Of a stretch of 64,000 nucleotides of DNA, positions 11,451-40,416 are shown piece by piece. Under the pieces are notes generated by a model. That model made no database searches. It had not been told where the DNA came from and was given only the letters and a program-made list of their open reading frames with translations. How positions within the stretch are numbered: position 1 is the first letter of the stretch; each line of letters starts with the position of its first letter. Position numbers and translations under genes: made by a program. The DNA comes from a virus, in the IMG/VR virus record IMGVR_UViG_3300028883_000003, positions 1-64,000 of that record, one strand, 5' to 3'.

Positions 11451-11918
11451 TCATATTTCTAGCAAATCTTCATGTCTAAAGCTGTAGGAAATTTGTTTAG
11501 TTACTTTAGATAACGCCTCCAATTCATTTTCCCCATTGTCAACCAGCTGTCTATATTTTGCCTGCCTTATTTTATGTGGGAATTCCAGTATAATTCTAAA
11601 AACACCATTAGCATTTTCAGCCCAACTATTCAAAAAATTAGTATTTCTGCAACCAAATTTAGGCTCGGTTAATTCCAGTAGTTCTTTGTCAACTATATAA
11701 CAAAACATTTTAGAATTATTTCGGCCATCCATGGCTAAAACAATTCTATTTTGCCCGGATTCAAATATGAAACATTTGAATTTACGATACGTTCTTTTAG
11801 TTGCATTAATAGTGGTGTCAACTTTTAGTGCTACAACTTCAGCTTGCTTAGATTCTCCTATGGAAAGAATAGCATTTTCCATTTCTCTATGCTTTTCTAC
11901 TGGAGCTAGCATGTACAT
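11451..11918 (-). CDS. hypothetical protein (155 aa)
   Basis: A mixed alpha/beta protein with no known motif; the middle has strands (YRKFKCFIFESGQNRIVLAMDG) and the end is helical and basic. It starts inside the 3' end of the sigma factor gene, so the two may be coupled and this could be a partner of that factor. That is only a positional guess. Confidence 0.7.
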   Translation of the reverse strand: MYMLAPVEKHREMENAILSIGESKQAEVVALKVDTTINATKRTYRKFKCFIFESGQNRIVLAMDGRNNSKMFCYIVDKELLELTEPKFGCRNTNFLNSWAENANGVFRIILEFPHKIRQAKYRQLVDNGENELEALSKVTKQISYSFRHEDLLEI

Positions 11919-12439
11919 TTTATAAACTCCTCTATGGTTTGTTCTATCTGTTCTTCAATTTCAATCTTCTTAATAACTTTTAATCTAGCTCTGTGTATTT
12001 TTGTTTTAACAGTATTAATTGGTATATCTAATTTTTCAGCAATTTCTTGATATTCATAACCAAGATAGTACATGTTTAATATTCTTTTCCTCAAGTTATC
12101 CAGCTTTTGCACAGCCTTTTTAACTTTCCTCGCCCTATCATATTCTTTCTCTTGAATAGGGATATTTTCAAATAGTTCTGTGTAATAAACTATTGGGTTT
12201 TTTGTTTCTTTTTTATAGTCGTTTAGAGACATATTTCTCAAGATAGTTAAAAGCCATCCGGTGAAGTAATCCCCACTTGGCATTTGTTTATACAAGTGAA
12301 GTTTTTGCTTAGCTCTTATATATAAATTATGCACAATATCCTTGGCTTCTTTAATATCGTTTTGCACATACCTATTTGCATATGAGGCCAACATTGGGTA
12401 ACACTGCATAAATCTTTTGTCAAATTCTCGTACCGTCAT
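11906..12439 (-). CDS. ECF-like sigma-70 family factor
   Basis: The 177-residue protein has a region 2 (YANRYVQNDIKEAKDIVHN ... FTGWLLTILRNMSLNDYKK) and a region 4 helix-turn-helix (YLGYEYQEIAEKLDIPINTV KTKIHRARLKVIKK), with no region 1 or 3. That is the layout of extracytoplasmic-function sigma factors. It should direct host RNA polymerase to a phage promoter class. Its place inside the leftward early arm suggests an early-to-middle switch. I see no anti-sigma partner, unless the unknown gene downstream is one. Confidence 0.88.
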   Translation of the reverse strand: MTVREFDKRFMQCYPMLASYANRYVQNDIKEAKDIVHNLYIRAKQKLHLYKQMPSGDYFTGWLLTILRNMSLNDYKKETKNPIVYYTELFENIPIQEKEYDRARKVKKAVQKLDNLRKRILNMYYLGYEYQEIAEKLDIPINTVKTKIHRARLKVIKKIEIEEQIEQTIEEFIKCTC

Positions 12440-19545: not shown

Positions 19546-19866
19546 TTAAATTTTTATTTTCTCTTTGTCCATATAATCGGCCAATAACATTAAAACAGTT
19601 CCATCTATTTCTCTAAAAGTATATATACGCCTTCCCCAATTGTATAGTTTATTTATTTCCCTAACTACACTATTATCTTCGTGGCTACGGCAATATAGTT
19701 TCCATTTAAGCTTAGAAACTAGCCAAAATAAACCAAAATCAAAACTTATGGCCTTTTCAATATTTTTGGGGGTAATTTTAACCTTTTCACCAAATACTTT
19801 ACGAAATCTACTGATCGCATTTGGGCAGGCATGATTTTTTTTTAGAAAATTAGCAGTAATGTACAT
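19546..19866 (-). CDS. hypothetical helical protein, paralog of 12635 and 14544 genes (106 aa)
   Basis: It starts MYITANFLKKNHACPNAI and continues FGEKVKITPKNIEKAISF, FWLVSKLKWKLY and LLADYMDKEKI. The order of these blocks matches the two other paralogs. No known function. Confidence 0.7.
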   Translation of the reverse strand: MYITANFLKKNHACPNAISRFRKVFGEKVKITPKNIEKAISFDFGLFWLVSKLKWKLYCRSHEDNSVVREINKLYNWGRRIYTFREIDGTVLMLLADYMDKEKIKI

Positions 19867-19869
19867 ATT

Positions 19870-20286
19870 TTACTCTACTTTAGTTTTCCCACATTTTTTA
19901 CAGTACTTAAATTTATGGTTTTCTTCTTCCACTACCATATCTAACCAACTTGTCCATTTATGAAAACACCAAAAAGTAGGTTTAAAATTTAGCACCATAT
20001 GTTTTACTTTATTTTCTACGTGGTGTGCGATTTCTTTATGTGTAGGCATATTATAAAACTCCTTCTCTTTTTTCTCTAGCCATTTATTTAAAAATATATA
20101 TGAACCAAAAGTTATTCCAAGAATAAATTCGAGTCGTACAAAACTAAATGTAAAGGATGACCAACCTATTTCGTTAGGTCTGGGCCCTGTTATAAACAAA
20201 AAGCAGAGCCAAAAACCTAAAAGAGTTAAAAGTATGTTTGCCACAAACCATATGGTAGCAATTATTACAGTAGCTTTTTCTGTCAT
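19870..20286 (-). CDS. membrane protein with cytoplasmic cysteine ribbon (138 aa)
   Basis: Two membrane segments (IWFVANILLTLLGFWLCFLF and FVRLEFILGITFGSYIFL) precede a soluble part with HHVENKVKHMV and a C-terminal C...YCKKCGK ribbon. Function unknown. Confidence 0.7.
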   Translation of the reverse strand: MTEKATVIIATIWFVANILLTLLGFWLCFLFITGPRPNEIGWSSFTFSFVRLEFILGITFGSYIFLNKWLEKKEKEFYNMPTHKEIAHHVENKVKHMVLNFKPTFWCFHKWTSWLDMVVEEENHKFKYCKKCGKTKVE

Positions 20287-20288
20287 TA

Positions 20289-20381
20289 TTAGTCTTCCCT
20301 TTTAGTTCCACAATATGGGCAACAGATATAATCTGGCCAATACCAGACAACCCCACAAGAACATATGGTTTTTATTCTCAT
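20289..20381 (-). CDS. zinc-ribbon mini-protein (30 aa)
   Basis: The frame MRIKTICSCGVVWYWPDYIC then CPYCGTKRED has CSC and CCPYC pairs, a minimal rubredoxin-like knuckle. Its ATG overlaps the stop of the gene upstream. Its size keeps confidence moderate. Confidence 0.6.
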   Translation of the reverse strand: MRIKTICSCGVVWYWPDYICCPYCGTKRED

Positions 20382-20746
20382 GGGCGGTTTAGAAATTTGC
20401 TTAATTGAGTTATAGGAACACTTGTTGCTTTTTTAGGTGTGTAATCCCAATAACCATTTCCTAATGTAGTATCAATGCCTGCATCTTTAATTATTTTCTG
20501 CACTTTATCATAGTCAAATTCTAAATCCTCTATAAAACTATCCATGAAAAATGTTCCATGAGGATGATTCATTAAATCAATGCAAACATCTGCTAATTCC
20601 TCGTCAGAAAGCTTTTCTATTTCTGCCACTAGAGGATTTACATCCATTACTTCATGAGGCCCTTTATCGTAATAGTTATACTCCCCAAAAAGTTTCAGGG
20701 CTTCCTCAATTTTCTCAGTTATCTTTTTGCTAAATTCATGTCTCAT
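20378..20746 (-). CDS. hypothetical protein (122 aa)
   Basis: An acidic, helical protein (ITEKIEEALKLFGEY ... LSDEELADVCIDLMNHPHG) with no membrane segment or known motif. Confidence 0.7.
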   Translation of the reverse strand: MRHEFSKKITEKIEEALKLFGEYNYYDKGPHEVMDVNPLVAEIEKLSDEELADVCIDLMNHPHGTFFMDSFIEDLEFDYDKVQKIIKDAGIDTTLGNGYWDYTPKKATSVPITQLSKFLNRP

Positions 20747-20750
20747 AATT

Positions 20751-21188
20751 TTAGAAAAGATTATTTATGTGTTCTTTGGTCCAACCACACTTCAATAAAT
20801 GGTCCTGTACTTCTTTCTGTGTAACTTCTTTTATCTTTGAGATTACATATATTGTGCACTCATGTTTTTCAGAATACATTATTTTTCCTGTGGTTTTCAA
20901 ATATACATGTTTCCACTTTTTTCCATTTGTATATTCTTGGTCCCATGATTCAAATATGGCTTCTACTGTTCCATCTTCTGCCAAAAATTCTCCGTATAAA
21001 TCACTGTCAGCTACATCACAATCATGTAGCAAGCCATTATATCTGCCTTCAGAATCTTCTGTGCCAGTATAGGCATTAGCATATGTTGCTGGTATAATAA
21101 AAATGTATTCATCTGGCCCACCCATATTAGTTTGGCACCACGAGTGCCCATCTGAAAAGTGTTCGTCAAACACTTCTTGCATTGTCAT
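20751..21188 (-). CDS. hypothetical protein (145 aa)
   Basis: An acidic mixed protein with strands around GGPDEYIFIIPATYANAY and a D-rich middle (LLHDCDVADSDLYGEF). The end is helical. I do not recognise it. Confidence 0.68.
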   Translation of the reverse strand: MTMQEVFDEHFSDGHSWCQTNMGGPDEYIFIIPATYANAYTGTEDSEGRYNGLLHDCDVADSDLYGEFLAEDGTVEAIFESWDQEYTNGKKWKHVYLKTTGKIMYSEKHECTIYVISKIKEVTQKEVQDHLLKCGWTKEHINNLF

Positions 21189-21202
21189 TTTTATTCCCCT
21201 TG

Positions 21203-21547
21203 TTACAAATACTCAATTTTTAGGTTTTCTGGTTTCATTTCTTCATCCACTTTTCGTTGTATTTTTTCTTCTTGCTCTTTAGTAAGGGTCATTTCCCCTA
21301 TTTTTATTTTTAACCATGTTTGAAACTTCGTGGACTTTATCAGCCGTCTAAATGCTGCTTTTTTATTCTGGTGCTGATGTCTGCTATCTCTTGCTTCACC
21401 TACTGCCTTCGATTCTCTGTGTATAATTCTCACACCAGTATCCCTTTTATTCTGGTTTTGTCCACCCTTACCACCAGACCTAAAAGTTTGGATATCAAAA
21501 TCTTTTTTAGTTACACGAAATAAAAGCTCTTTTTTCATCTTGTCCAC
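21203..21547 (-). CDS. GGQ-domain release-factor-like protein (ArfB/RF-H type)
   Basis: The 114-residue protein is essentially one RF-1 catalytic domain: FRSGGKGGQNQNKRDTGVR at about 22-40 holds the GGQ tripeptide that hydrolyses peptidyl-tRNA in the ribosome. There is no codon-recognition domain. That matches the rescue factor ArfB in size and in its basic C-terminal tail, though RF-H-like proteins are also possible. In a phage it could free ribosomes stalled on cut mRNA or help stop codon handling. It overlaps the macro-domain gene upstream. Confidence 0.82.
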   Translation of the reverse strand: MDKMKKELLFRVTKKDFDIQTFRSGGKGGQNQNKRDTGVRIIHRESKAVGEARDSRHQHQNKKAAFRRLIKSTKFQTWLKIKIGEMTLTKEQEEKIQRKVDEEMKPENLKIEYL

Positions 21548-21981
21548 ACATGAACATTATCTGGCAATTTTTGTATGATGGGTAATACGTCCTTGTATTT
21601 CAACCCACCATAACCAATCCCCGGAAAGTTTAGATCAAATCTACATTCAGGAAATTCAATACTTGCATAACGTTCTAATTTTCCGGTGGATTGGTGTATA
21701 AGAGCTAATTCTGCTTTATTTTTAAAATGATATTTTACTTGGAAAGCACCAATGGATGTACTAGGTAAACCTATTAGAGCAATAGCCAACCCATAATATC
21801 CAAGATGTTCTATTTGCCCACGAAAACCACTTGGCACTTTTGGAAACTTCTTTTTCACTTCCAAAGCCATACCCCTACCCATTACCAATTCATTTCTGAT
21901 ATTGAGAAAGGAATTAGCAGTAAAAAAGAAGAAGTCGGTCTTTTCAAAAATAGACCACATGTCACCTTTTTCTAGTATCAT
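21535..21981 (-). CDS. macro-domain-like ADP-ribose-binding protein
   Basis: The order of segments EKGDMW, FFFTANSFLNIRNELVMGRG and the final NFPGIGYGGLKYKDVL ... VHVW follows the macro-domain fold that binds ADP-ribose or its 1''-phosphate. Macro proteins remove ADP-ribose marks or process by-products of tRNA repair; both would fit a phage with an RNA ligase or facing ADP-ribosylating defences. The catalytic residues are not certain from the sequence alone. Confidence 0.72.
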   Translation of the reverse strand: MILEKGDMWSIFEKTDFFFFTANSFLNIRNELVMGRGMALEVKKKFPKVPSGFRGQIEHLGYYGLAIALIGLPSTSIGAFQVKYHFKNKAELALIHQSTGKLERYASIEFPECRFDLNFPGIGYGGLKYKDVLPIIQKLPDNVHVWTR

Positions 21982-22038
21982 ATCTCAATTATCTTTTCTG
22001 AATTATGGTCATATTCGTGTTTTGTGTCAACTTTACCA

Positions 22039-22248
22039 CTATTTCACCTTTACAATTATCCCATCTTTAGCAGTACAAGTAGCATACCATGTATGGGGCT
22101 TTGGGTAATGAGGACCTTCTACACAGAAAGTACCATCTTTAGGTTCATTCCCACCAAAAGGTCCGGGTTGGTAATAGGTTATTTTTCTGCCTTCATTTAC
22201 TGCTGCCTTTAGTTCTTTTTTGGTTTTGAAATTGATGTGCGTATACAT
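22039..22248 (-). CDS. conserved phage hypothetical protein (69 aa)
   Basis: The sequence MYTHINFKTKKELKAAVNEG then YQPGPFGGN and GPHYPKPHTWYA follows a pattern I recall from many unrelated phage and prophage hypotheticals: a KTKKEL start, a glycine-rich loop and a HxW motif. Role unknown. It is the first gene after the two structured RNAs. Confidence 0.78.
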   Translation of the reverse strand: MYTHINFKTKKELKAAVNEGRKITYYQPGPFGGNEPKDGTFCVEGPHYPKPHTWYATCTAKDGIIVKVK

Positions 22249-22271
22249 TTATTTACCTCCTTATTGTTTAT

Positions 22272-22350
22272 AAAAAAAGCCAGCTAAAATATAATCAAGT
22301 AAATTCTAAATTCCCACAAAAAAAATCTACTCAACTAATTCTAGCTGGCT
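22272..22350 (-). ncRNA. structured RNA element, copy A
   Basis: On the minus strand AGCCAGCTA (22350-22342) pairs with TAGCTGGCT (22286-22278), and inside it TTGAGTAGATT pairs with AATTTACTTGA (11 pairs with some G-U). The element ends in a seven-T tract. A second copy lies 40 bases upstream. The outer stem differs by one co-varying pair between copies (C-G here, T-A there), which supports a real RNA structure. It lies between two genes and could be a small RNA with its own terminator, or a processed leader. Confidence 0.65.
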
Positions 22351-22383
22351 CTGAACACTAACTAAGAAAGCAACTATGTATCA

Positions 22384-22459
22384 TAAAAAAAGCCAGTTAA
22401 AACATAGTCAAATAAACTAAAACCATATAAAACATTTATTTGATTACTCCTAACTGGCT
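22384..22459 (-). ncRNA. structured RNA element, copy B
   Basis: On the minus strand AGCCAGTTA (22459-22451) pairs with TAACTGGCT (22399-22391), and an inner TCAAATAAA pairs with TTTATTTGA. A seven-T tract follows. The inner stem sequence differs from copy A but keeps pairing. On the plus strand the outer stem is also followed by T residues, so it could end transcription both ways. Confidence 0.65.
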
Positions 22460-22556
22460 TTTTGGCAATATTAATTTTTTTTAATTTTAGTGTTACATGA
22501 TACACTCTCCTTTTAACACTTTATAATTATCCAAATTTTTTCCTAATACTTCGTCC

Positions 22557-22877
22557 TTAGATTTCCTCACAATATTTTGTAGTCTGTGCAGGCTTAACTT
22601 CCCCTTTAGGGAATACCCAAGTAAAGTCATACCCGGTTTTACTTTGGACTAAATAATAATCACCTGCATCAATAGCAAATTTTTCCTCCCCAACGTTAAA
22701 CTGAAAACTGTACCAGTTCTGCCCCCAACGGTCTTTATCCTCTGGAATTGCTAGGATTTTAATTTTTACGATTTTCATGTTTGTTTCCTTTTCTTTGAAT
22801 AATTCGTTTTCCAGTTCTTTAACCCACTCACCCAAAATTTTGAGGGCCCTTTGTTCAGTTTGTTCTTTTTTAGTCAT
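22557..22877 (-). CDS. hypothetical protein (106 aa)
   Basis: A helical charged start (QRALKILGEWVKELENELF) precedes a strand-rich half with KIVKIKILAIPEDKDRW and YSFQFNVGEEKFAID. An internal start (MKIVKIKIL) would leave only the strand-rich domain. No known family. Confidence 0.68.
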   Translation of the reverse strand: MTKKEQTEQRALKILGEWVKELENELFKEKETNMKIVKIKILAIPEDKDRWGQNWYSFQFNVGEEKFAIDAGDYYLVQSKTGYDFTWVFPKGEVKPAQTTKYCEEI

Positions 22878-23157
22878 AATTTACCTCTACTTTATCAATC
22901 TCACCAAAAAATGGATCAAATAAAGTTGAAATTACACTATCAAAATTCTCGGTCCACAAAGAATACCCACATATGTGCCTACATCCTTCATCTTCTGGAA
23001 ATTTTTGTTCATCATTTTCTTTAAAATAGAATTTGAATCCACCATGTTTGTACCAAATTAAAACATAAGGTATTTTCAATCTTTTTAATTCCGCTATTAT
23101 CTCTGGCAAATTTTCTTGATTCCCGGATGGTAAACCTCTTGCATATAGCTTAGTCAT
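22870..23157 (-). CDS. hypothetical protein (95 aa)
   Basis: A mixed alpha/beta protein (LPEIIAELKRLKIPYVLIWY ... FKFYFKENDEQKF) with no membrane segment or known motif. It overlaps the next gene by eight bases. Confidence 0.7.
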   Translation of the reverse strand: MTKLYARGLPSGNQENLPEIIAELKRLKIPYVLIWYKHGGFKFYFKENDEQKFPEDEGCRHICGYSLWTENFDSVISTLFDPFFGEIDKVEVNYD

Positions 23158-23160
23158 AAT

Positions 23161-23250
23161 TTACCTCATAAATACATCAATTCTGCATACAAACAGAACG
23201 AGTATGACTAGCAATGATAGGCCAGTAATTATTTTTTCACACTTTGTCAT
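23161..23250 (-). CDS. single-pass membrane mini-protein (29 aa)
   Basis: The frame MTKCEKIITGLSLLVILVLF then VCRIDVFMR is one membrane helix with a short charged end. A GGTAGGAAAATG start context supports it. Confidence 0.5.
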   Translation of the reverse strand: MTKCEKIITGLSLLVILVLFVCRIDVFMR

Positions 23251-23365
23251 TTTCCTACCCCAATTGCTCATTGATAATTTTTAGACACTTTTCTGGCATT
23301 ATATTTATAATAAATGCCTGCCTTGTGTATAAGATTAAGTGTACTTTTTTACCACTCTCCTGTAC

Positions 23366-23415
23366 AAAGAAAAGGGGACCAACAATTAAGTTGATCCCCT
23401 ATAGGGCAGAACATG
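23366..23415 (-). terminator. leftward terminator T3 with conserved leader
   Basis: On the minus strand GGGGATCAAC (23399-23390) pairs with GTTGGTCCCC (23383-23374), closed by a TTAATT-type loop and followed by TTTTCTTT. It is the strongest of the three leftward terminators. The preceding bases CTCCATGTTCTGCCCTATA match the leader of T2, and CCCTATAGGG could pair instead of the terminator arm. Confidence 0.8.
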
Positions 23416-23438
23416 GAGGAAAGTGTAGGGTAACGAGA

Positions 23439-23690
23439 TTACGAATTATTAAGTTGGTACTCAATCTGCACCTTTTGAGCAGTACAGTTGAGTATAGTTT
23501 GTTCAATAATATCAAGGAATTCTGAATACTTTTTCTCCAGAAAGTCTACCCCCTTAATTTGAGCTGCTTTATAAAGGCCCTCAACAATACACCTTTCAGT
23601 GGAGAACTCTCTAAGCGTGGTTTCAAGTTCCCTTTTTTTAGCAAGTAGCTTATTTTTTTTCTTAAGTCTATTTCTAACTTCGTCGTTCAT
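23439..23690 (-). CDS. coiled-coil protein (83 aa)
   Basis: The sequence (RNRLKKKNKLLAKKRELETT ... EKKYSEFLDIIEQTILN) is basic, leucine-rich and almost certainly an extended helix or coiled coil. Possibly binds nucleic acid or a protein partner. It is the last gene before T3. Confidence 0.7.
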   Translation of the reverse strand: MNDEVRNRLKKKNKLLAKKRELETTLREFSTERCIVEGLYKAAQIKGVDFLEKKYSEFLDIIEQTILNCTAQKVQIEYQLNNS

Positions 23691-23710
23691 TTTCTCCTCC
23701 TACCTAACTA

Positions 23711-23851
23711 CTACTTAAAATCTCTTACCTTTTCCTTCCAGATATGTTTCGGGCAGTATTTATACAGCCCACTTTTCACCAACTCCTTGGCCTTTTCATC
23801 AGAAGTTCTAAAAGGGGTTGAGCCTTTTTCTTTGGCAATTACTGTTTTCAT
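23711..23851 (-). CDS. small basic protein (46 aa)
   Basis: The frame MKTVIAKEKGSTPFRTSDEK then AKELVKSGLYKYCPKHIWKE is preceded by a strong TAGGAGGAAAAC site. Such short basic proteins are typical early phage genes. No known family. Confidence 0.68.
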   Translation of the reverse strand: MKTVIAKEKGSTPFRTSDEKAKELVKSGLYKYCPKHIWKEKVRDFK

Positions 23852-23881
23852 GTTTTCCTCCTAAAAATCTCTGGCCATTTT

Positions 23882-24103
23882 TTAGTTCGCAGATTCACTT
23901 ATTTGTTTTTGCTGCCTCTCCCAAAAGTTAGGTTGTTTATTCACAGCATTATTTGCTATTTGAATAATTTCTGCGTATGAATAACCATAATCAGGGGAAC
24001 AAAGTTCAGAAATCAAATCCATATAAAGCTCATGTTCTGATTGAATAGATGGGCTTTCATCTAAAAGAGCTATATAATCTTCATAGGTTAAATCTGTTGG
24101 CAT
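23882..24103 (-). CDS. hypothetical acidic protein (73 aa)
   Basis: An acidic helical protein (EDYIALLDESPSIQSEHEL ... YAEIIQIANNAVN) ending QKQISESAN. It resembles the C-terminal half of the 25061 gene (YEEYMELIAECC ... AEDTANEV), and its last codons match those of the 24149 gene, so these three share ancestry or a duplicated end. Confidence 0.7.
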   Translation of the reverse strand: MPTDLTYEDYIALLDESPSIQSEHELYMDLISELCSPDYGYSYAEIIQIANNAVNKQPNFWERQQKQISESAN

Positions 24104-24148
24104 AATTACATATCCATAAATGGGTTTACTACTTTTTTGTCATCTTCT

Positions 24149-24325
24149 TCAGTTAGCAGATTCACCATTTTGCAAAGAAACATAAGACTGAGCTATTGTT
24201 CTACTTTCCTGTAGACTGTACCCTTTCTGGAAATAATAACTCTTAACTTTCCAAAAGGTCTTAGGTGGGCTAAACTTCTTGTTTTCAAATGCCCACTTAG
24301 CAATTTGAGTGCATTTATTTTTCAT
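24149..24325 (-). CDS. hypothetical protein (58 aa)
   Basis: The frame starts MKNKCTQIAKWAFENKKFSP and ends QNGESAN. The end matches the 23882 gene at the DNA level as well. A helical WxF pattern (FWKVKSYYFQKGYSLQES) is shared more weakly. Function unknown. Confidence 0.65.
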   Translation of the reverse strand: MKNKCTQIAKWAFENKKFSPPKTFWKVKSYYFQKGYSLQESRTIAQSYVSLQNGESAN

Positions 24326-24326
24326 A

Positions 24327-25049
24327 CTACCACACTAACTCTATGGGGTTATTAGACTTAACTTCACCAGTCAATTTATCCAAATGAAGTATCCATTCCT
24401 CAGATACAGTAATAAGTTCCTCTAATTGATCCCCAGTAAGCTCTGCACCTGTCTTTTCAGCCCAGTTTTGCAATCTCTCCCTATTAAGCCCCTGTCCCCA
24501 GTCTGTGTACTGCCATATTATCTTTACTCCCCCTTGTCTGTCCTTCCCTGAACAAATTACAGAACCACTTTTAATTACAGTATTAGTTTGGTCCGTCTCA
24601 AAATATCTTGGCTTTCTGTAATATTCAGGTTTAGTTGTGAAATTAAAGGACAAAGGCTTAACTTTATGATTCCAGCCTTTCTTTTTGTACCGTTCTGTGT
24701 CAATCAGTTTATGCCCCTGTCCTAAAATCTCACCTTCAGGAGTCTCATATAGGGTTATCTCAAACTCTACCTGATCCTCTTTTATCTTACCACTTTTCAA
24801 GTTTTTGCGATGTACAGCAAAAGTTGTGAAGGTATAAAGCTTGGTCATTATCGGCTTACCAGATATAGGAATCTCTCGTTTACCTTCTGTTTCAGTTATA
24901 GGATAATACTTTTTCTGTTTCCTGCTATAACCTACCCTTCCAGTAAAGTTGTTGTTATCATCATAAGTACCACGTTGGGAGACAACAGATATAGTTTGTG
25001 TTCTATCTTCCCAACTCATGCCATTCTCAAGAAATTCCACTACACACAT
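24327..25049 (-). CDS. hypothetical protein (240 aa), unusual codon use
   Basis: A strand-rich protein (TQTISVVSQRGTYDD, IPISGKPIMTKLYTFTTF, KSGSVICSGKDRQGGVKIIW) with a helical end. I do not recognise it. Its codons are clearly less AT-rich than the neighbours beyond 24 kb, similar to the other genes next to the control region, which may reflect a recent origin or strong expression. Confidence 0.72.
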   Translation of the reverse strand: MCVVEFLENGMSWEDRTQTISVVSQRGTYDDNNNFTGRVGYSRKQKKYYPITETEGKREIPISGKPIMTKLYTFTTFAVHRKNLKSGKIKEDQVEFEITLYETPEGEILGQGHKLIDTERYKKKGWNHKVKPLSFNFTTKPEYYRKPRYFETDQTNTVIKSGSVICSGKDRQGGVKIIWQYTDWGQGLNRERLQNWAEKTGAELTGDQLEELITVSEEWILHLDKLTGEVKSNNPIELVW

Positions 25050-25060
25050 ATTAGACCTCG

Positions 25061-25459
25061 TTATTCAGCTCTGCCCCACTCAAACACTTCATTAGCAGTA
25101 TCTTCAGCTTCAGTTAGAGAATCTCCACGTATACAGCACTCAGCTATGAGTTCCATATACTCCTCATATTCAGCTTCTACACTTAACATCTTCTGCTCTC
25201 CTGCTATGTGTTTAAGGTTGCTGTGGCCGCCGTCCATGCTCAAAGTATCGGCAAACGGACCACTTGGCAAGGCCCTCAAAAAACTTTTTTCACAACCGAC
25301 TGTCCCGCAACGAGTTACGAAGATGGACCAGGCTGTCCACAATTGCCAAAAATCGGCATTTTCACAAATTGACTCAGCTAACTCGCTGTCCGGCAAGGGG
25401 TTATGAAACGGATACAAAGCAGTCCACGTTTGTACCAAACGCAGGTCGTTTAGGTCCAT
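25061..25459 (-). CDS. hypothetical protein, first leftward gene (132 aa), repeat-bearing N-terminus
   Basis: The C-terminal 40 residues (YEEYMELIAECCIRGDSLTE) resemble the 23882 protein. The N-terminal 60 residues contain two related 29-residue units (WTALYPFHN... and WTAWSIFVT...), the product of 87-base DNA repeats that continue upstream of the start. An ATG at 25189 would give only the conserved end, so the true start is uncertain. Confidence 0.55.
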   Translation of the reverse strand: MDLNDLRLVQTWTALYPFHNPLPDSELAESICENADFWQLWTAWSIFVTRCGTVGCEKSFLRALPSGPFADTLSMDGGHSNLKHIAGEQKMLSVEAEYEEYMELIAECCIRGDSLTEAEDTANEVFEWGRAE

Positions 25460-39771: not shown

Positions 39772-40416
39772 TTATAACACTCCTTTTTCTTTCAGCGTTC
39801 TTTTTAACATTTCAATACCCTCCCTTTTTATTTTATATAACCACCCTGCCTCACTACTAAATCCATATTGAACAGATAGTTCTTGAATAGACTGTCTTAG
39901 GATATAATACCCCAAAATAACAGTTAAGCAAGCTTCTGGTAATTTAGCTAAGGATTCAACTATTTCATACCCATTTTCATAACGGGATAGATCAAGCATT
40001 AAATCTTCTATTTGACAGTTAGTTAACCCCAATTTTTCAACTTCCAAACTTATCTGCTGTTGTGGCAAGTCCACCATTGAGCGTATTTTAGAAGCAAAAA
40101 TTTCTATTGCAAACTCATTATCCGGCTCTTGTCTTTTTAATATATTACCAATGTGGTCTTTCATAAAACCAGTAATGCGAGGAGTTAAATAAGTAGATAA
40201 TTTATATCCTTTGCACGGTTTAAACTTATTATTAACTACCTCAATCATTTCTACATAGCAGTCCTGCTTCATATCTTCAAGATCTTCTTTAGACAAAAAA
40301 GCCTTTAATCTGTGGGTATGCACAAACGAATTAAATAATTTATTAACTATTACAATACCTTCTTGGATAAGGTTATTCTTCTGACACTGGTTCGCCATAT
40401 ACATCATCGGACTCAT
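39772..40416 (-). CDS. sigma-70 family factor (phage late or middle)
   Basis: A region 2-like segment (LSKEDLEDMKQDCYVEMIEV then KGYKLSTYLTPRITGFMKDH) and a region 4-like end (LAKLPEACLTVILGYYILRQ then SIQELSVQYGFS) fit a reduced sigma factor without region 1. It is distinct from the ECF-like factor at 11.9 kb. Because it sits in the replication block, it may switch on late genes such as those from 59 kb. It overlaps the next gene by 44 bases. Confidence 0.82.
   Translation of the reverse strand: MSPMMYMANQCQKNNLIQEGIVIVNKLFNSFVHTHRLKAFLSKEDLEDMKQDCYVEMIEVVNNKFKPCKGYKLSTYLTPRITGFMKDHIGNILKRQEPDNEFAIEIFASKIRSMVDLPQQQISLEVEKLGLTNCQIEDLMLDLSRYENGYEIVESLAKLPEACLTVILGYYILRQSIQELSVQYGFSSEAGWLYKIKREGIEMLKRTLKEKGVL

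Follow-up and report, generated by a model that had tools for sequence, protein, structure and literature searches.

Organization of the locus

The virus examined here is IMG/VR record IMGVR_UViG_3300028883_000003, which is 118,180 bases in length, and whose terminase leads us to read it as a tailed phage; the window, i.e., the whole stretch of DNA analyzed, is its first 64 kb (positions 1 to 64,000). From 19546 to 25459 every called gene lies on the minus strand, and within this leftward series a gap of 308 bases (22249-22556) separates a gene encoding 106 aa from one encoding 69 aa. Read along the minus strand, the gap contains a hairpin (A), a run of seven U residues, a linker, a second hairpin (B), a second run of seven U residues, the Shine-Dalgarno sequence of the 69-aa gene and its ATG at 22248 (Table 1), with only about 8-9 nt between the U run of B and the Shine-Dalgarno sequence. 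An earlier, sequence-only reading of this region had described two elements 40 nt apart in a 308-base gap, each with a nine-pair outer stem (AGCCAG[C/T]TA with TA[G/A]CTGGCT), and on re-reading the sequence we found these coordinates, stems and distances to be as claimed.

Table 1. Features of the gap between the 106-aa and 69-aa genes and of its flanks
Feature	Position	Strand	Description
Upstream gene, 106 aa	22557..22877	-	Open reading frame with Shine-Dalgarno sequence
Hairpin A	22391..22459 (69 nt)	-	Basal stem of 12 bp, followed after single-base offsets by 3 bp and 10 bp; loop of 16 nt
Seven-T run after hairpin A	22385..22391	-	First T paired in the stem
Linker segment, ATACAT + TTGCTTTCTTA	22363..22381	-	Can pair with start codon and Shine-Dalgarno sequence of the 69-aa gene
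Hairpin B	22278..22350 (73 nt)	-	29 bp and a single bulged base; loop of 14 nt
Seven-T run after hairpin B	22272..22278	-	First T paired in the stem
Shine-Dalgarno sequence and start of the 69-aa gene	22243..22263	-	TAAGGAGGTAA (22263-22253) and ATGTAT (22248-22243); target of linker pairing
Downstream gene, 69 aa	22039..22248	-	Assigned to phrog_37117 (function unknown); viral contigs contain 38 homologues
Sigma-70-like promoter match	22002..22030	-	TTGACA-17-CATAAT; 11/12 consensus positions; just past the 69-aa gene

The 106-aa gene has no Pfam or PHROG match and no relative in viral contigs. Three further features of this region were observed. Upstream of hairpin A, at 22493-22512, an AAGGAG Shine-Dalgarno sequence stands 8 nt before an ATG followed immediately by TAA, forming a start-stop mini-ORF that may be due to chance. 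At 21203-21547, the same leftward operon encodes a small protein that carries an RF-1 (GGQ) release-factor domain (Pfam PF00472, phrog_3122), and on the minus strand at 23373-23400 a short, strong terminator (11 bp with a T-rich tail) lies within a 281-base gap between 23157 and 23439.

Our scan for promoters, which covered the sigma-70 type only, found no match on the minus strand of the gap. The match located just past the 69-aa gene might start transcription anew for the remaining genes of the operon, and is weak in that matches of this kind are about as frequent in shuffled sequence. The phage encodes two sigma-like proteins, at 11906-12439 and 39772-40416 (Sigma70 r2/r4, ECF-like, and Sigma70 r2 only, respectively), which suggests phage-specific promoters, and promoters of other types could therefore lie in the gap. 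A search for a phage promoter motif by way of enriched words gave nothing clear.

Structure and stability of hairpins A and B

Folded as minus-strand RNA, hairpin A reaches -22.7 kcal/mol alone and -26.9 kcal/mol with its flanks (z = -5.6), and hairpin B reaches -31.3 and -33.3 kcal/mol (z = -8.8), with 0 shuffles folding as well in either case. The plus strand of B folds much worse than the minus strand (-14.1 versus -33.3 kcal/mol), since several G-U pairs of the minus strand turn into A-C when the other strand is read; as these G-U pairs are only sensible on the minus strand, this is the strand that has been kept paired. When every 80-nt window of either strand of the 118-kb record was ranked by folding, corrected for G+C content, B came first and A sixth, and not one of 2000 shuffled versions of the gap contained a pair of U-tailed hairpins that scored positive as terminators. 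The seven-T runs reported in the sequence-only reading are present on the minus strand (22385-22391 and 22272-22278), although the first T of each is also the last paired base of the stem.

Two other structures were considered and rejected. The span of 69-73 nt prompted the idea of a tRNA-like element or tRNA remnant; each element is one long hairpin, and ARAGORN gives no tRNA there. A pseudoknot between the upstream flank and the loop of A or B was judged by inspection to be chance, with a 7-bp, A+T-rich match for A and none for B.

Hairpins A and B are sister copies

Alignment of A with B shows 58 of 77 gap-free columns to be identical, with a single 4-base indel located in the loop (identity counted from this alignment), demonstrating that the two hairpins arose by duplication; no further copy is present anywhere in the genome. 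The change from T-A to C-G in the outer stem, put forward earlier as co-variation, is a true double change, but it is one event between two copies, and thus thinner than it had been worded. The accompanying statement that the inner stem keeps pairing stands for one compensatory pair (A-U to G-C); a further two double changes form pairs in B and not in A.

We compared the pairs kept between the copies with a null in which the same substitutions were placed at random, using the fold of B as the reference. Going from A to B, 29 of 29 pairs are kept (null mean 20.5, reached in 0 of 20,000 trials); going from B to A, 24 of 29 are kept against a null of 22.7 (p 0.26), which is not significant. With two sequences alone, covariation between A and B is supportive of the paired structures and not a proof of them.

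Comparative searches

The A/B region has no blastn match among phage records, and a search of Rfam returned no family at the gathering cut-off, only microRNA hairpin models below threshold. Patterns made from the 3' half of A/B and from the 5' half found no match in viral contigs and in genome contigs, respectively. With a covariance model of A and B, only A and B themselves were strong in 709 kb of loci, and the best other match (28.1 bits) was a Lactiplantibacillus hairpin with the outer stem only. Searches with flanking proteins or DNA found no relatives for either the 106-aa or the 240-aa gene. Homologues of the 69-aa gene, 38 in all, sit in other contexts, and no such hairpins are present in the 260 nt upstream of their starts. 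Just one near relative shares long synteny (G001, terminase 66% identical); it was considered as a source of the orthologous region and discarded, as its 54-kb fragment stops short of this part of the operon.

Probable tandem terminators upstream of the 69-aa gene

Both hairpins combine a stable structure on the transcribed strand with an immediate 3' run of seven U residues and a terminator score above threshold, as expected of an intrinsic terminator. Using a d'Aubenton-Carafa-type score, with a threshold of 0 and energies taken from ViennaRNA, B scores 13.5 and A scores 5.0, the fifth and eighth of nine positives in 118 kb. Shuffled genomes give 2-7 positives, long ones included, so that in this A+T-rich phage the score alone is weak, and it is the occurrence of a pair at one place that counts. 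Like intrinsic terminators, A and B have a G+C-containing stem base directly followed by U7, and they are intergenic, on the right strand and in tandem; unlike them, they have stems of 25-29 bp and long loops of 14-16 nt, and the U run of B adjoins the next Shine-Dalgarno sequence. As a point against the terminator reading, the other best-scoring terminators of this phage are 20-26 nt in all, i.e., shorter than A and B, and something may therefore select for a long duplex. Among the options that had been raised earlier for these elements, terminators with extended stems fits best, given the direction of transcription, the G+C-containing stem base, the U run, the positive scores and the intergenic position.

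Taken with the duplication, these features make it probable, in our assessment, that A and B are tandem intrinsic (Rho-independent) terminators that attenuate the 69-aa gene. A polymerase moving leftward from the 106-aa gene would transcribe a long hairpin and seven U residues and then release, and those transcripts that escape A would run into B. The 69-aa gene would then be carried by read-through RNA only, making the A/B pair an attenuator in its leader, since the U run of B is so near the Shine-Dalgarno sequence that a conventional promoter has no room. Termination by A and B would by itself be ordinary. If this reading is right, a double stop stands directly before the start of a small gene that has homologues in many otherwise different phages, a gene that may stay silent until read-through occurs.

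The same long stems could have a different use, in which they are RNase III-type processing sites or stabilizing hairpins, with the duplexes being cut or protecting the ends of polycistronic RNA and the U runs incidental. Stems of 25-29 bp suffice for RNase III and exceed what a terminator needs, and the hairpins lie between genes of one leftward operon, much as hairpins between the early genes of T7 are cut or protect RNA ends. We nevertheless think this unlikely because U7 is found exactly at the stem base in both copies, where a terminator needs it and processing does not.

Predicted pairing of the linker with the start site of the 69-aa gene

The linker segment between the hairpins is predicted to form a duplex with the start site of the 69-aa gene (6 + 11 bp, -15.0 kcal/mol; p 0.02 against shuffled linkers, and 0.004 with the whole leader folded). 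In the fold of the whole leader, B is stacked inside this pairing, and among 37 genes that start at an ATG behind a Shine-Dalgarno sequence, the 69-aa gene has the Shine-Dalgarno sequence predicted to be least accessible. Such putative occlusion is predicted from a single sequence, and was noticed after looking. Were the pairing to form in the read-through RNA, the linker would cover both the Shine-Dalgarno sequence and the start codon, and the 69-aa gene would be poorly translated as well as rarely transcribed past both terminators. A second candidate, an 8-nt upstream complement to the linker (TGTATCAT/ATGATACA), would arise by chance at about 0.07 by a hand estimate, and was set aside.

Start sites are hidden in this way in phage T4, in genes e, soc, 49 and I-TevI (PMC3014915). 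As in the translation-inhibiting leaders of T4, the start site of the 69-aa gene pairs with an upstream segment (PMC3014915); unlike in those leaders, a U-tailed hairpin is stacked within the pairing, and the phage has no recognizable T4-like late promoter system. In control of the gene e type, the structure would mainly serve to hide the Shine-Dalgarno sequence as long as early transcripts are long, and a short promoter located between B and the Shine-Dalgarno sequence, TATAAACA (22272-22265), would give a well-translated late transcript that lacks the 5' strand. The linker pairing, the lowest accessibility among the 37 genes, the two sigma-like proteins and the T4 precedents with their late promoter TATAAATA (PMC3014915) speak for such an arrangement. 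However, TATAAACA differs from TATAAATA, T4-like late boxes, i.e., TATAAATA-like words, are not enriched before genes, and hairpin A with its U run is left unexplained, so that we hold this form of control to be quite improbable.

By predicted energy, the arms of A and B could also swap partners, resembling attenuators of the trp-leader style (1:2 / 2:3 / 3:4). Pairing of the 3' arm of A with the 5' arm of B reaches -23.6 kcal/mol, versus -24.9 for A, and is the predicted fold until the 3' arm of B has been made; the C-G change in B weakens this exchange. No leader peptide or ligand site was identified for A/B, and arm exchange is expected of any tandem hairpin duplicate, and is therefore no evidence of regulation. 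The hairpins, linker and Shine-Dalgarno sequence could conceivably make up one RNA switch, in which the arms exchange during transcription, the linker ties translation of the 69-aa gene to termination, and a phage or host factor sets read-through and start-site access at once; we regard this as distinctly doubtful.

Small RNAs or absence of function as unlikely alternatives

The sequence-only reading had also offered phage small RNAs, sponges or decoys. Such trans-acting RNAs could come from promoters of their own, or remain as stable 3' ends after termination. In being compact, stable and related, and in ending in U runs, the two RNAs do have the shape of many bacterial small RNAs. Against this, neither A nor B has a sigma-70-type promoter on the minus strand of the gap, their loops diverge, and neither an Rfam match nor a homologue elsewhere in the collections searched was found. 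These options are thus unsupported, and we consider them very unlikely. That the hairpins have no function, being due to chance or to a recent neutral duplication of one terminator, would agree with there being just two copies without orthologues and with the non-significant pairing test from B to A, yet it is hardly credible beside G+C-corrected genome ranks of 1 and 6, stems kept despite divergence, and none of 2000 shuffles yielding such a pair.

Other RNA elements

Searching viral contigs with a pattern of the outer stem followed by T5 matched 14 contigs. In 13 of these (L043 and L045-L056, with L050 the most divergent; for example, L045:3107-3232), the match appears to be a distinct U-tailed RNA with an apical hairpin, inner and outer stems (the outer one AGCCAGTTAC/GTAACTGGCT), and a strand farther upstream that pairs with the loop as a pseudoknot. 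These loci were rejected as homologues of A and B, as all that is common to both is the outer stem imposed by the pattern; model R1 gives them 15.6-20.1 bits (E 0.5-5). Among ten distinct sequences of the pseudoknot RNA, 15 of 28 pairs are changed on both sides, a number reached by 0 of 500 shuffles, and the pseudoknot helix alone contains five pairs with double changes. There is no match to this RNA in Rfam 15. In L045, L049 and L055 it lies roughly 0.9-1.2 kb before a putative phage exonuclease gene (read by eye), and in several contigs its place is within a long stretch without coding sequence, ahead of genes for replication or recombination. This phage RNA family, pseudoknotted and without a counterpart in Rfam, may matter more than the hairpins themselves.

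Other single elements were noticed as well. In a Lactiplantibacillus locus (L067), the same outer stem with T5 is located 12 nt past a stop codon, and looks like an ordinary terminator. A 91-nt plus-strand element at L060:1432-1522 (genome 85432-85522) has an outer stem AGGGGGTTG/CAACCCTCT and T6, and overlaps the end of an ORF; through the sequence AAGAGG-CGATAC-CCTCTT-AAA-GTATCG that it contains, it could fold into an H-type pseudoknot, or else have two copies of CCCTCT competing for the 5' strand. In the bacterial leader at L071:4340-4440 (Lactiplantibacillus plajomi), two competing hairpins (AGCCAGCTAGAC/GTCTAGCTGG and GCCAGTTAGATTC/GAATCTAGCTGGC) precede a long ORF in an attenuator-like arrangement.
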